Shown here piece after piece: positions 44,485 through 48,114 of a stretch of 64,000 nt of DNA (the stretch's first letter is position 1; each line of letters opens with the position of its first letter). The stretch covers positions 982,520-1,046,519 of the forward strand of contig NZ_SPNT01000002.1 in NCBI RefSeq assembly GCF_004959855.1. The letters are read 5' to 3'. This stretch comes from Nitratireductor sp. XY-223. Its GTDB lineage: Bacteria > Pseudomonadota > Alphaproteobacteria > Rhizobiales > Rhizobiaceae. Under the pieces are notes generated by a model, which saw nothing but the letters and a program-made list of their open reading frames with translations, had not been told where the DNA came from and did not search any database. A program made the position numbers and the translations under genes.

Positions 44485-45318
44485 TCAGCTGACAATTGGC
44501 AGTTGCGTCATGGAGCCGGGAATATCCACGCCGATTCGTGACAGTATCGTTGGTGCAATGGCACGCTGGTCAAGGACGGTTTCGGCCGCCGGACCTTCCG
44601 CCTCTCCGAAATAGTAGAATGCGGTGTCGCGCATGGACGGCTCGTCACCGCCGTGGGCGCCGTCCGGGTTCATGCCGTGGTCCGCCGCGACAAATACGTC
44701 ATAGCCGGCCTCAAGCCATTGCGGAACGGTCCTTGAAAGCGCGTCGTCGATCACCGCGACCTGCCGCCGGTATTCGGGCGATGCGCCGCCGAATGTGTGG
44801 CCGATGGTGTCGGCGCTGCTGGTGTGGAGCAGCAGGTAATCGGGATTGTGCTTTCGCAACAGCATCGTAGCCTGTGCGCACAGGTCGATCTCCGCCGGCG
44901 CGCAGGCGTTGCGCTTTCCGTATCCTTCCATGGAGTAGTAACGCGCGTGGGCTATCGGCGCCTCCGGATCGTCGATCTCGCAGTGCCGGAAGGGATCGAA
45001 CGCGCTGCCGCCATAGAGGGTGTGAAAATATGCATGCCCGACAACCGCTGCGGATTTCCCGGCCGATCGAAGGGCGGAGAATATGTTGGGCTTTTGCGAC
45101 GGCCCCAGCGCGTTGTTTGACAATATGCCGTGCTCCACGGGCGCAAGGCCCGTGTGGATCGTCTCGTACATGACCAGCGATATGGTGGGAATGCAGGATC
45201 GCATCTTCCAGCGTTTGGCACGGCCTGCCTCATGGCATGCCTGCAGATAGCCGCACTGAGTCACCGCGGTCTCGTAGCCGACTCCATCGAGTATGATGAG
45301 TGCAGTTTTGCGGCTCAT
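44485..45318 (-). CDS. Alkaline-phosphatase-superfamily phosphohydrolase, tmp operon
   Basis: A 277-residue cytoplasmic hydrolase of the nucleotide pyrophosphatase/phosphodiesterase branch, the group that includes phosphonoacetate hydrolase. Both metal sites look complete: D11, D170, H174, D213, H214 and H222. The nucleophile position appears to be S47 or T45 (IPTISL), where related enzymes use Thr. There is no signal peptide. It lies 34 bp after tmpB, so it probably acts in the same pathway. Possible roles are release of the phosphonate headgroup from an ester or hydrolysis of a related phosphonate; neither is shown. The ATG at 45318 is preferred to GTG 45330. Confidence 0.75.
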   Translation of the reverse strand: MSRKTALIILDGVGYETAVTQCGYLQACHEAGRAKRWKMRSCIPTISLVMYETIHTGLAPVEHGILSNNALGPSQKPNIFSALRSAGKSAAVVGHAYFHTLYGGSAFDPFRHCEIDDPEAPIAHARYYSMEGYGKRNACAPAEIDLCAQATMLLRKHNPDYLLLHTSSADTIGHTFGGASPEYRRQVAVIDDALSRTVPQWLEAGYDVFVAADHGMNPDGAHGGDEPSMRDTAFYYFGEAEGPAAETVLDQRAIAPTILSRIGVDIPGSMTQLPIVS

Positions 45319-45352
45319 GGATGTCCGCACCCGGTCGCGACAGACATCGGTC

Positions 45353-45949
45353 TCAGCCGGTGGCCCTTACATGCGCGTCAACCACCCGCTGCAAAACCGG
45401 CGCATAATGGGAAAACGACGGCGTTTGCATTCCCGGCACTTTTCCTTCCTCGTCCCAGATCCGGACCTGGATGATGGCGTCGAGATTGGGATTGTCCGCA
45501 AAGGCTCTCGCTTCTTCCGCGCTCATCGGACCGCCCTGCAGATTGAGCGTGTGGACCGAAGCCGGTGAAAGGCGGTCGAAATAGGAGGGATCGGTGGCGC
45601 AAAGGTAGCGCTTGGCGGCGACATGGTGCTTGACGCAATCGGTCACGACTTGCGGAAAGAACGGCGCCAGGACAGCGGCGCCCGCCTCATCGTGATGGTT
45701 GTTGATTCCCTTCTCCAGGGCATCTTCGGGAAACTCGTTGGTATAGTGTCCGATATCGTGCAGAAGCGCCGCCGCGATCATGTGATCATCAGCACCCGCA
45801 TCCTCCGCGAGCTTGGCGCCCTGGAGCATATGCTCCGACATCGTAACCTGTTCGCCCAGGTAGGAATCGGCACCGCGCCGCTCGAATATCTCGCCGATGA
45901 ATTCGACAATGTTGCCGGAATACAGACTGGTCGGGTCGGGACGGCTCAT
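45353..45949 (-). CDS. tmpB: TmpB/PhnZ-like HD-domain di-iron oxygenase
   Basis: A 198-residue HD-domain protein expected to oxidatively cleave the C-P bond of a 1-hydroxy-alkylphosphonate. The PhnZ/TmpB residues align with a constant offset of 6 from PhnZ as I recall it: Y30 and E33 (YLGE), H40, H64-D65 and H68 (LLHDIGH). These separate it from ordinary HD phosphohydrolases. The paired gene is BBOX-like, as for TmpA, rather than PhnY-like. Substrate (R)-1-hydroxy-2-(trimethylamino)ethylphosphonate, giving glycine betaine and phosphate, is therefore the best inference. Its ATG overlaps the tmpA stop by 4 bases. Confidence 0.78.
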
Positions 45950-47100
45950 TGTGCTGCCTCCATCAAAGTGTTCTCCAGCGCCGCAAGGGTGGAAAGCAGC
46001 CCGTCCTTGTCGGCGTAGCAGCCTTGAAGCCAACGGGAGCCGGCCCCTGAATAGCCGGTGCGGGCGTGCAGCACACGCGTGTTGTCGACGATGAAGCTTT
46101 CACCGGGCTCGAGCTTGAAGGAGACCCCCATGGCCGGGTCGTCCATGATTGCGGCGAAGTGCCTGTAAGCATGATAATAGGCCGCCATCTTCTCGAACGG
46201 CACGTCCGTGATCGGCGCGGCCGAGCGGTTGTTGAACCGTATGGCGATGAGCTCTCCGTCGGGCGCAAGTTCTATCATCGGTCGGCGCGAGCGCAGGCAG
46301 ATGCCGTCCGAGCCGGCATATTCGAAACGCGCGCAATGCCTGGCCAGAAGCGAGAAACCGTCCGGGTTCTCGTCCCGCAGCCGCTGGGCTGCACGGAAGC
46401 CGTCAACGACAATGGAATCGCCGCCCTCGGCTGAATTCTCCAGGCAATAAAGAACCTGGAGCGTGGGAACCGGGTCGCGGTACGGATTGTCCGTATGGGC
46501 CTGGAGGCCGAGGCCGGTATAGGCCAGGTTTGTCGGATTGACCTCGGTGCGGACTTCGAACCAGCGCCCGTAATTGGTTTCACGCACAAATCCGAACGGC
46601 CGCACGACCTCAATCAGCGCACCGCTTTCCACCGGACCGTTGGTCAGGTGCGCGAAGCCGAATTTGCGGATTGCATAAAGCCAGTCACGAAGAGCCGATC
46701 CGTCGGTTGCATTTGCCGCGAAATCTCCTGTCGGGATCGTGGCAAGGGATTCGCGATCCCAGGTCTCGATCGCCTGAGACAGCCAACCCGCCGGCTCGTC
46801 CGATTGTCGATCGTAAGCATTGGCACGAAGCCATTCGGCCGGGAATTCAACGGTCTTTTCCTCAGGCAGGAAGGTGACCGACAGGACCCGGCCATCGGAC
46901 CGCGCGCTCCCGATACTGGTTTCCTCCGGAATGTCGGTCAGCGTGATAAGGCGCTGGCCGTTTCCGGCGGAGCGGGTTTCGCCGTCCAGTGCATTGTCGC
47001 GCAGCCATAATGCGTGAAAGCGCGTGCTCGAGCCATCCGCGAGGGAAAGCTGAATAGCGGCGCCGCCGTCCAATACCGACACCGACTCAATCGAAGTCAT
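45946..47100 (-). CDS. tmpA: TmpA-like 2-oxoglutarate/Fe(II) dioxygenase
   Basis: A 384-residue TauD/gamma-butyrobetaine-hydroxylase-like dioxygenase. The iron triad is H202-x-D204 ([10 protein letters not shown]) and H345 (RVLHARTGY), with R347 or R356 for 2-oxoglutarate. The N-terminal domain has the WLRDN start of the BBOX zinc domain, but the zinc-binding cysteines are absent. Pairing with a PhnZ-type HD oxygenase points to TmpA, which hydroxylates 2-(trimethylamino)ethylphosphonate at C1. Gamma-butyrobetaine hydroxylase is the alternative. The ATG at 47100 has GGAGGG upstream. First gene of the operon. Confidence 0.78.
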
Positions 47101-47176
47101 TGCACCCTCCAATATTTTTTGATCCCGTTCCCGGCCGGTCTGTGCCGACTGTGTGCAACGGGTCGCTTGCTGGACC

Positions 47177-47195
47177 ATATCGCTGCCCGTGATAT
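47177..47195. promoter_or_regulatory. LysR-type operator, ATATC-N9-GATAT
   Basis: The perfect inverted repeat ATATC (47177-47181) and GATAT (47191-47195), 9 bp apart, contains the T-N11-A core of LysR-type binding sites. It lies in the divergent region, 76 bp before the tmpA start and about 43 bp before the proposed LysR start. This is the expected place for autoregulation and activation of tmpA. Confidence 0.6.
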
Positions 47196-47238
47196 AAGCA
47201 CAAGAAATGGATATTTAGATCAAGGCATCGATTTCATT

Positions 47239-48114
47239 TTGGCAGATGCACACACCGAAAGGACCCTTCCGCCGCTGGAATGGTTGCGCGTTTTCGAGGC
47301 CGCCGGCCGTTGCGGCAGTTTCACCGCCGCGGCCGGGGAACTCGGCCTGACGCAGGCGGCGATCAGTCAGAGGATCCGCAATCTCGAACACCGGCTGGGA
47401 AAGGAACTGTTTGTCCGCAAGCCGCGGGGTGTCGCGCTGACGCTCGACGGCGAGGCCTACCTGCCGCATGTTCAGGCGGCGCTTTCCGCGCTGTCGCGCA
47501 GCACCGCGGATCTCTTTTCGCCCGATATCAGCGAGATCACGATCTGTGCCATGCCGTCGCATATCGAATTGCTGATCCTGCCGCGTCTGAAGGCTCTGCT
47601 GGCGGATCGCCCGCAGTTGCGCGTGACCTTCGTCTCCGCATTCAGGCAGCATGACTTCGATAATATCGCGGCGGACTTTCACCTGCGCTATGGAAACGGC
47701 ACCTGGCCGGGAAGGCGGGCGCAACTTTTGCACCGGGAGCGGCTGGCGCCGGCTGTTGCGCCGCAGCACCTCAAGCAGGGCGGCGATTGGCGCGCGCTTC
47801 CGGCCCTTGCGCTGAGCGGTCCCCGTTCGGGCTGGCAGGCCTGGGCGGCGGCCACAGGCTCGCCCCCGCCCTATCGCACCGGCATGCGTTTCGACTCCTA
47901 CGACCTCGCCCTGACCGCCGCCATAGAGGGCCATGGGGCGATATTGGCATCCATTCCGCTTTCGCAAGCCGCGATTGGCGAGGGGCGTCTCGCATTGCTT
48001 TCCGAACCGTCGGTGACGATGGATGCGGGCTATTGGCTGTCCTGGGCCGCAGACCGTCCGGTTCCGGCGCTGCTACGGGAAATGGTCGATATCCTGGCCG
48101 CGGACGCTGTGTGA
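47239..48114 (+). CDS. LysR-family transcriptional regulator
   Basis: A regulator of about 291 residues with an N-terminal winged helix (GSFTAAAGELGLTQAAISQRI) and a C-terminal effector-binding domain of the GcvA-like group. It is divergent from tmpA and likely controls it in response to a trimethylaminoethylphosphonate-related ligand. The start is uncertain. TTG 47239 is proposed because the domain begins at LPPLEWLRVFEAAG shortly after; its ribosome-binding site is weak. The frame is open back to 47014 through sequence that is clearly the tmpA side. Confidence 0.8.
   Translation: MADAHTERTLPPLEWLRVFEAAGRCGSFTAAAGELGLTQAAISQRIRNLEHRLGKELFVRKPRGVALTLDGEAYLPHVQAALSALSRSTADLFSPDISEITICAMPSHIELLILPRLKALLADRPQLRVTFVSAFRQHDFDNIAADFHLRYGNGTWPGRRAQLLHRERLAPAVAPQHLKQGGDWRALPALALSGPRSGWQAWAAATGSPPPYRTGMRFDSYDLALTAAIEGHGAILASIPLSQAAIGEGRLALLSEPSVTMDAGYWLSWAADRPVPALLREMVDILAADAV

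Follow-up and report, generated by a model that had tools for sequence, protein, structure and literature searches.

A probable LysR-controlled tmpA-tmpB-PDE operon for choline-like organophosphorus compounds in Nitratireductor sp. XY-223

Gene layout and the identity of TmpA and TmpB

We examined a 64,000-nucleotide stretch of DNA from Nitratireductor sp. XY-223 (hereafter the window), which carries the genes tmpA and tmpB, a third gene of the alkaline-phosphatase superfamily and a divergent gene for a LysR-type regulator. The predicted substrate of the first two is 2-trimethylaminoethylphosphonate (TMAEP), and PDE is our working name for the third gene of the operon. On the minus strand, tmpA (45946..47100; 384 aa; putative Fe(II)/2-oxoglutarate-dependent TMAEP dioxygenase) has its likely ATG at 47100, in a reading frame open from 47178, and its stop ends at 45946. 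It shares the sequence ATGA, an overlap of 4 bp, with the start of tmpB (45353..45949, minus strand; 198 aa; predicted (R)-1-hydroxy-2-trimethylaminoethylphosphonate oxygenase with a di-iron HD fold). PDE (44485..45318, minus strand; 277 aa) begins 34 bp after tmpB, with an ATG at 45318 and an alternative GTG start at 45330. The LysR gene occupies the plus strand at 47239..48114 (291 aa; PF00126 and PF03466); its longest open reading frame runs from 47014 over tmpA, and the position of the helix-turn-helix makes the TTG at 47239 the likely start, with coding ending at 48114. The first-pass annotation had described the tmpA-tmpB overlap, the alkaline-phosphatase-superfamily gene next to it and the divergent LysR gene, and open reading frames and domains bear out each of these. 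Its span for the operon, 44485-48114, has the stop codons of PDE and LysR as its two ends, and only PDE, tmpB and tmpA are co-directional within it.

All four are real genes rather than chance open reading frames and bear the codon pattern of purifying selection: compared with a same-genus relative (locus L035), the third position differs in 57-61% of codons, and positions 1 and 2 in 11-27%. Open reading frames in the loci of relatives were called greedily, and some wrong-strand picks (such as those lying over LysR in L035 and tmpA in L083) were rechecked by tblastn.

TmpA and TmpB convert TMAEP to glycine betaine and phosphate, steps that are established for the family. The window pair simply adds one more member to this known pathway, already named by current models, and we hold it nearly certain from sequence comparison that both proteins have the assigned functions. 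TmpA scores 594.3 bits against the equivalog model NF049936 (cut-off 400), and TmpB 326.5 bits against NF049941 (cut-off 300). On the general Phn-HD model TmpB falls just short (210.5 bits against 214.6), and on the PhnZ1 model far short (146.8 against 300). The earlier expectation that general annotation would yield a gamma-butyrobetaine hydroxylase (BBOX) and an HD hydrolase is thus outdated, because NCBIfam now holds equivalogs for both proteins. The best solved structures are those of Leisingera caerulea, TmpA 6npb (2.3e-172; 70% identity over 363 aa) and TmpB 6npa (2.1e-75; 60% identity over 194 aa), which are the same enzymes with the same residues and the same gene pair; TmpB also matches PhnZ 4mlm at 6e-33. 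L. caerulea is described as having a two-gene tmpA-tmpB operon (PMC10574752), whereas PDE is present in the window as a third gene, and the PhnY*/PhnZ route for 2-aminoethylphosphonate uses the same two-step chemistry (PMC8177086); the window TmpB differs from PhnZ in the model scores given above.

The residues agree with these assignments. The phosphonate ligands of TmpA, N187, N287 and R288 (PMC9296572), map to N191, N291 and R292 of the window protein and are all conserved. The iron ligands H202, D204 and H345 are present as the first reading had them, forming the facial triad, and so are all the TmpB residues it listed, with Y30 and E33 corresponding to the YxxE loop of HD-domain di-iron oxygenases (PMC8177086) together with H40, H64, D65 and H68. 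In a TmpA tree of 54 rows, made by a quick method with very long reference and outgroup branches, human BBOX as the single BBOX, and the window's own copy (L006) and the incomplete rows L022 and L023 left out, the window protein stands in a 43-row clade with 6npb (SH-aLRT 100), apart from human BBOX and DfmD.

That the dioxygenase is instead a gamma-butyrobetaine hydroxylase, or an enzyme for another trimethylammonium compound, is very improbable. The protein does exceed the cut-off of the BBOX model TIGR02409 (440 bits against 414.75), so that this model alone would mislabel it. The higher score on the TmpA model, its place in the TmpA clade, the adjacent tmpB gene and R292, which is Ala in human BBOX (and Pro in DfmD), all speak for TmpA. 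We rejected the BBOX identity from the model scores and the tree. The N-terminal domain of BBOX also carries zinc cysteines, which the window protein lacks. Their absence, as first reported, is real, but it does not mark a distinct subfamily, because the characterised L. caerulea TmpA is equally without them. For TmpB, model scores place the protein apart from the non-oxygenase HD hydrolases.

A divergent TmpA-like group, with 34-37% identity, comprises L024 (G002), L025 (G164), L170, L171 and L172; only L170 is over the TmpA cut-off, and the other four are below it. These proteins have Asp at the position of the phosphonate-binding Asn191 and keep the Arg, so that Arg at 292 alone is not diagnostic of TmpA. 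A TmpB-like HD gene (26-29% identical) lies near L024 and L170, and the group may act on a different substrate.

The PDE protein and its linkage to tmpAB

PDE is the new part of this locus, tmpAB and the LysR gene being an already known arrangement. Among papers on TmpA, TmpB and TMAEP, searched by titles and the beginnings of abstracts with subscription literature mostly outside the scope, and in passages of PMC10574752, PMC8177086, PMC9296572 and PMC11203657, no description of a third gene with tmpAB was found, though one may exist in print. The protein matches PF01663 at 66.6 bits (cut-off 23; 3.8e-18), as do all 50 aligned relatives, and the catalytic set D11, S47, N68, D170, H174, D213, H214 and H222 is invariant in this alignment of 50, with roles assigned by alignment to PhnA and from general knowledge of the superfamily. 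R126, which is outside this set, is invariant too. No NCBIfam equivalog came near its cut-off, and viral contigs gave no match to patterns made from the single window sequence. PDE is a compact enzyme with a Ser nucleophile, uncharacterised as far as the libraries searched go, and we treat it as a candidate ester hydrolase for choline-type phospho-compounds. Judged by eye from its start, MSRKTALIILDG, it would be cytoplasmic.

In a Foldseek search with the confident AF2 model of PDE (pLDDT 96, pTM 0.94), a bacterial NPP, Xac NPP 2gsn, leads the list at 1.9e-13. The first 50 matches also include ENPP1/3, MCR-type catalytic domains and the Rhizobium phosphonate monoester hydrolase 2vqr (1e-11), and ENPP7 with phosphocholine (5tcd) is 49th by Foldseek (1.9e-11) and first in a profile search of the PDB (2.3e-12). 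With the NPPs (2gsn, ENPP7) PDE has in common the fold, PF01663 and the Asn after the nucleophile (N68); these enzymes, however, use Thr as nucleophile and are about 380 aa or more in length, against the aligned Ser and 277 aa of PDE, and identity is 14-15%.

Three identities for PDE were considered and rejected. Its catalytic residues can be aligned to those of PhnA (hhalign probability 98, E 6e-14; S47 to T60 and N68 to N81), but it scores 21.2 bits on the PhnA model TIGR02335, whose cut-off is 407.55, and the PhnA cap, the stretch from DHG to HGG, is down to a few residues. In PhnA a di-basic K-x-K pair holds the dianionic group; these lysines, K122 and K124, fall on A96 and F98 of PDE and are thus not conserved. 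PafA has a K-D-R motif near the active site, and PDE reaches 30.8 bits of the 650 that the PafA model requires; against four PafA-like proteins, themselves under the PafA cut-off, hhalign aligned only residues 153-221 and not the half with the nucleophile. Phosphonate monoester hydrolases of the formylglycine type have a CxPxR nucleophile motif, whereas the corresponding region of PDE reads PTISLVMY, with an invariant Ser and no CxPxR.

A scan of named genomes yielded 135 PDE relatives, and loci were counted for the best 80 of them. Sixteen of the 80 have tmpB immediately before PDE in the same orientation, and 4 further loci have tmpBA on the opposite strand at a distance of 2-3 kb; 3 of these 20 linked loci are the same records as L035, L063 and L066. 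The 16 tmpB-PDE carriers belong to the Rhizobiaceae group, Kiloniella and a related metagenome-assembled genome (MAG), Stappiaceae, Roseobacteraceae/Paracoccaceae and one Granulosicoccus MAG, and named carriers of linked tmpAB and PDE include Kiloniella, Labrenzia alba, Roseibium, Mameliella and Tateyamaria. One of the 16, L112, has its PDE stretch interrupted by a stop. In L035 and L098 tmpB and PDE overlap by 4 bp when open reading frames are taken from their first starts.

The linkage seems to have a repeated history. In a PDE tree of 81 rows, the 17 tmpAB-linked rows (window included) need 3 changes, the four other linked rows, of the Kiloniellaceae/Denitrobaculum type, form a separate, distant clade, and in the TmpA tree PDE-bearing operons are scattered among PDE-free ones. 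These placements point to repeated joining or loss, the link to tmpAB being present in two or more distinct lineages of PDE. The tmpAB-PDE architecture is a recurrent minority variant.

Co-occurrence extends to whole genomes. Among 385 alphaproteobacterial genomes, PDE (called at E <= 1e-20) was found in 15, TmpA over its cut-off in 28 and both in 8, the PDE and TmpA counts being taken as the same 385-genome draw. TmpA thus occurs in 8 of 15 genomes with PDE and in 20 of 370 without it, a difference with a Fisher p of 1.3e-6 (9.4e-6 when the window is removed) that is uncorrected for descent. A direct search gave TmpA in 8/15 PDE genomes against 1/20 PDE-free control genomes. TmpA was also present elsewhere in 13 of 29 searched genomes whose PDE locus has no nearby tmpAB, hand-chosen from 60 such loci; for those in the window's own PDE clade the figure is 7 of 10. 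One of the 13, L149, has a piece of TmpB some 6.6 kb away from its PDE. Taken with the gene linkage, these comparisons of sequences make it likely that PDE works in the same pathway as tmpAB.

The divergent LysR gene and the intergenic motif

LysR regulators next to phosphonate operons are well known (PMC10574752), and a LysR gene beside tmpA is the usual arrangement in the loci compared here. Of the 22 family loci that exceed the cut-off, 15, the window among them, have a LysR homologue transcribed away from tmpA; contig ends cut the locus in 2 of the 7 misses. Of the 16 tmpAB-PDE loci, 14 have such a homologue. Between the LysR gene and tmpA lies the motif ATTTCTTGTGCTTAT (47194..47208, minus strand), a candidate regulator-binding site. 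Summed over 26 other intergenic regions, its best matches score 265, compared with shuffle maxima of 235 +/- 2.6 and a highest value of 242 among 40 shuffles; single matches are uneven, from 7 to 14 of 15 positions, and TTGTG appears in 9 of the 26 best matches. The 27 regions used were hand-picked from 38, with 11 (near copies and some others) set aside, and the shuffles ignore relatedness, so that the motif is supportive rather than proof. A search for T-N11-A LysR palindromes gave no clear repeated one.

The shared motif and the divergent gene in most family loci agree with the local regulation proposed on first pass, in that a dedicated LysR regulator is likely. We would give good odds, from these comparisons, that it regulates tmpA-tmpB-PDE. 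Scans for promoter-like sites (3 in the sequence, 1.4 +/- 1.2 in shuffled copies) and terminator-like sites (5 and 4.0 +/- 2.4) were not taken as evidence.

Possible role of PDE and the surroundings of the operon

We think it probable that the locus is a LysR-controlled tmpA-tmpB-PDE operon for choline-like organophosphorus compounds. TmpA would use Fe(II) and 2-oxoglutarate to hydroxylate C1 of TMAEP; the di-iron centre of TmpB would then split the C-P bond with O2, yielding glycine betaine and phosphate. The divergent LysR protein may sense the substrate or a derivative of it and act at the shared TTGTGnTTAT-like motif. More tentatively, PDE could be a cytoplasmic, metal-dependent hydrolase with a Ser nucleophile that cuts the P-O ester of a choline-type compound. 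It might free TMAEP from an ester, such as a deacylated phosphonolipid head group, for TmpA, or it might cleave phosphocholine or glycerophosphocholine, so that the operon would handle both phosphate and phosphonate forms. On the sequence comparisons it is about as likely as not that the substrate is a choline-type phospho-ester at all, be it phosphocholine, glycerophosphocholine or an ester of TMAEP.

The gene neighbourhoods of PDE relatives lean towards phosphocholine. Among the same 80 loci, a choline sulfatase homologue adjoins PDE in 12; one of these was scored (TIGR03417, 834 bits against 433), and it shares 64-93% identity with the remaining 11. Nine of the 80 loci (L106, L108, L109, L111, L114, L116, L117, L120 and L123), which come from Oceanospirillaceae or gammaproteobacterial MAGs, have a Na/Pi symporter gene divergent to PDE; 7 of these 9 also have a GMC gene after PDE, and the one scored reached 603.5 bits on the choline-dehydrogenase model, whose cut-off is 605. 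In L098 tmpAB-PDE is followed by two Rieske genes, for which GbcA is the best model (151 and 148 bits against a cut-off of 670). PDE may then be a phosphocholine phosphomonoesterase, releasing choline and phosphate, in an operon that covers phosphocholine together with its phosphonate isostere TMAEP. Physiology is compatible with such an enzyme: Phaeobacter PhoX or PhoB mutants still grow on fairly high phosphocholine, and Pho-independent enzymes or uptake of the intact phosphocholine head group in a marine roseobacter are described as still to be determined (PMC10132767). Choline sulfatase itself cuts phosphocholine only weakly, with a kcat/KM of 13 against 4.8 x 10^3 for its sulfate (PMC5870055). 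The missing counterpart of the PhnA lysine pair counts against a phosphomonoesterase, and we regard this specific role as rather unlikely. The fold and the same missing pair lean instead to a mono-anionic group, that is, a TMAEP ester or a diester. PDE would then be a phosphonate-monoester or diester hydrolase that releases TMAEP from an esterified form before TmpA acts, in keeping with its nearest fold and profile relatives, the NPP-type diesterases, with ENPP7-phosphocholine at the head of the profile search and with 2vqr in the Foldseek list. A ranking of folds is not evidence of substrate, however, natural TMAEP esters as nutrients are an assumption, and no lipase or transporter for such esters lies in the operon or among nine scanned neighbours; this role, too, we consider rather unlikely. 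We know of no account of how natural, perhaps esterified, forms of TMAEP reach TmpAB.

Several observations weigh against a role for PDE in choline-type metabolism or beside TmpAB, in addition to the descent that the Fisher statistic leaves uncorrected. Only 2 of the 22 family loci that exceed the cut-off (the window and one same-genus locus) have PDE within 1.5 kb of tmpA, and none of 12 further loci from a phylum draw has it there; since most tmpAB loci are without PDE, TMAEP use does not depend on it. The neighbourhoods with choline sulfatase or a Na/Pi symporter belong to more distant PDEs, 39-44% identical to that of the window, and come in good part from two lineages, and TmpA was found in 1 of 6 choline-sulfatase-linked genomes of the Paracoccaceae type (L153; not L122, L124, L126, L129 or L138). 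None of the named contexts occurs in 23 of the 81 PDE tree rows, and many PDEs adjoin Dpp/Opp-type ABC genes and esterases, Opp-type ABC genes being present in 16 of the 81. PDE might therefore serve another purpose, such as salvage of nucleotide-type or ABC-imported compounds, its place beside tmpAB being incidental or a matter of shared regulation. Recurrent joining across distinct lineages of both PDE and TmpA, the tight spacing in L035 and L098 and the genome-level co-occurrence all argue the other way, and we judge such a purpose improbable.

Returning to a role for PDE on choline-type esters, a small enzyme found with both tmpAB and choline genes is a direct candidate for a Pho-independent phosphocholine or TMAEP-ester step. 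In a broader and speculative version, which we hold to be possible but doubtful, PDE would be the first member of an uncharacterised family of small cytoplasmic enzymes, within the alkaline-phosphatase superfamily, that are dedicated to phospho-esters of the choline type. It would thereby be the hydrolase still missing in marine Proteobacteria for Pho-independent use of intact choline head groups; with tmpAB it would form one substrate-induced operon that takes choline phosphate or TMAEP esters, as well as TMAEP, to betaine and phosphate.

The operon does not appear to be the self-contained route that it was first taken for. A scan of nine neighbours in the interval from 39975 to 55705 (tRNA synthetase, DNA glycosylase, HNH, DsbB, VTT-domain protein, AMP-ligase, acetyltransferase, polysaccharide flippase-like and SecA) found no transporter for phosphonates or betaine among them. 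Elsewhere in the genome, PhnJ of C-P lyase lies about 3.4 kb from a phosphonate-binding protein on one contig (G000:C44:140856-145821), and there are five further PF12974 matches. From PhnJ and the binding protein the host probably has a second phosphonate route via C-P lyase, and, with no transporter near the operon, TMAEP may enter through a shared one.

Further observations concern the neighbourhoods of PDE and of the operon. PDE often ends a Dpp/Opp-type ABC set (SBP_bac_5, two permeases and a fused ATPase), as in L064, L066, L069, L075, L076 and several of L088-L155, and some of these sets are accompanied by genes for an S15/CocE hydrolase and an HSL-type esterase. In the window, a tRNA-Leu (CAA) lies at 43770-43855 on the plus strand, about 630 bp past the end of the PDE gene. 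Downstream of the LysR gene, an AMP-binding ligase (48267-50063, plus strand) has a 72% identical counterpart in the corresponding position of the same-genus locus L035 and one other match (L028, 27% identical) among 20 family tmpAB loci; its position beside the LysR gene probably reflects shared synteny and not the pathway.

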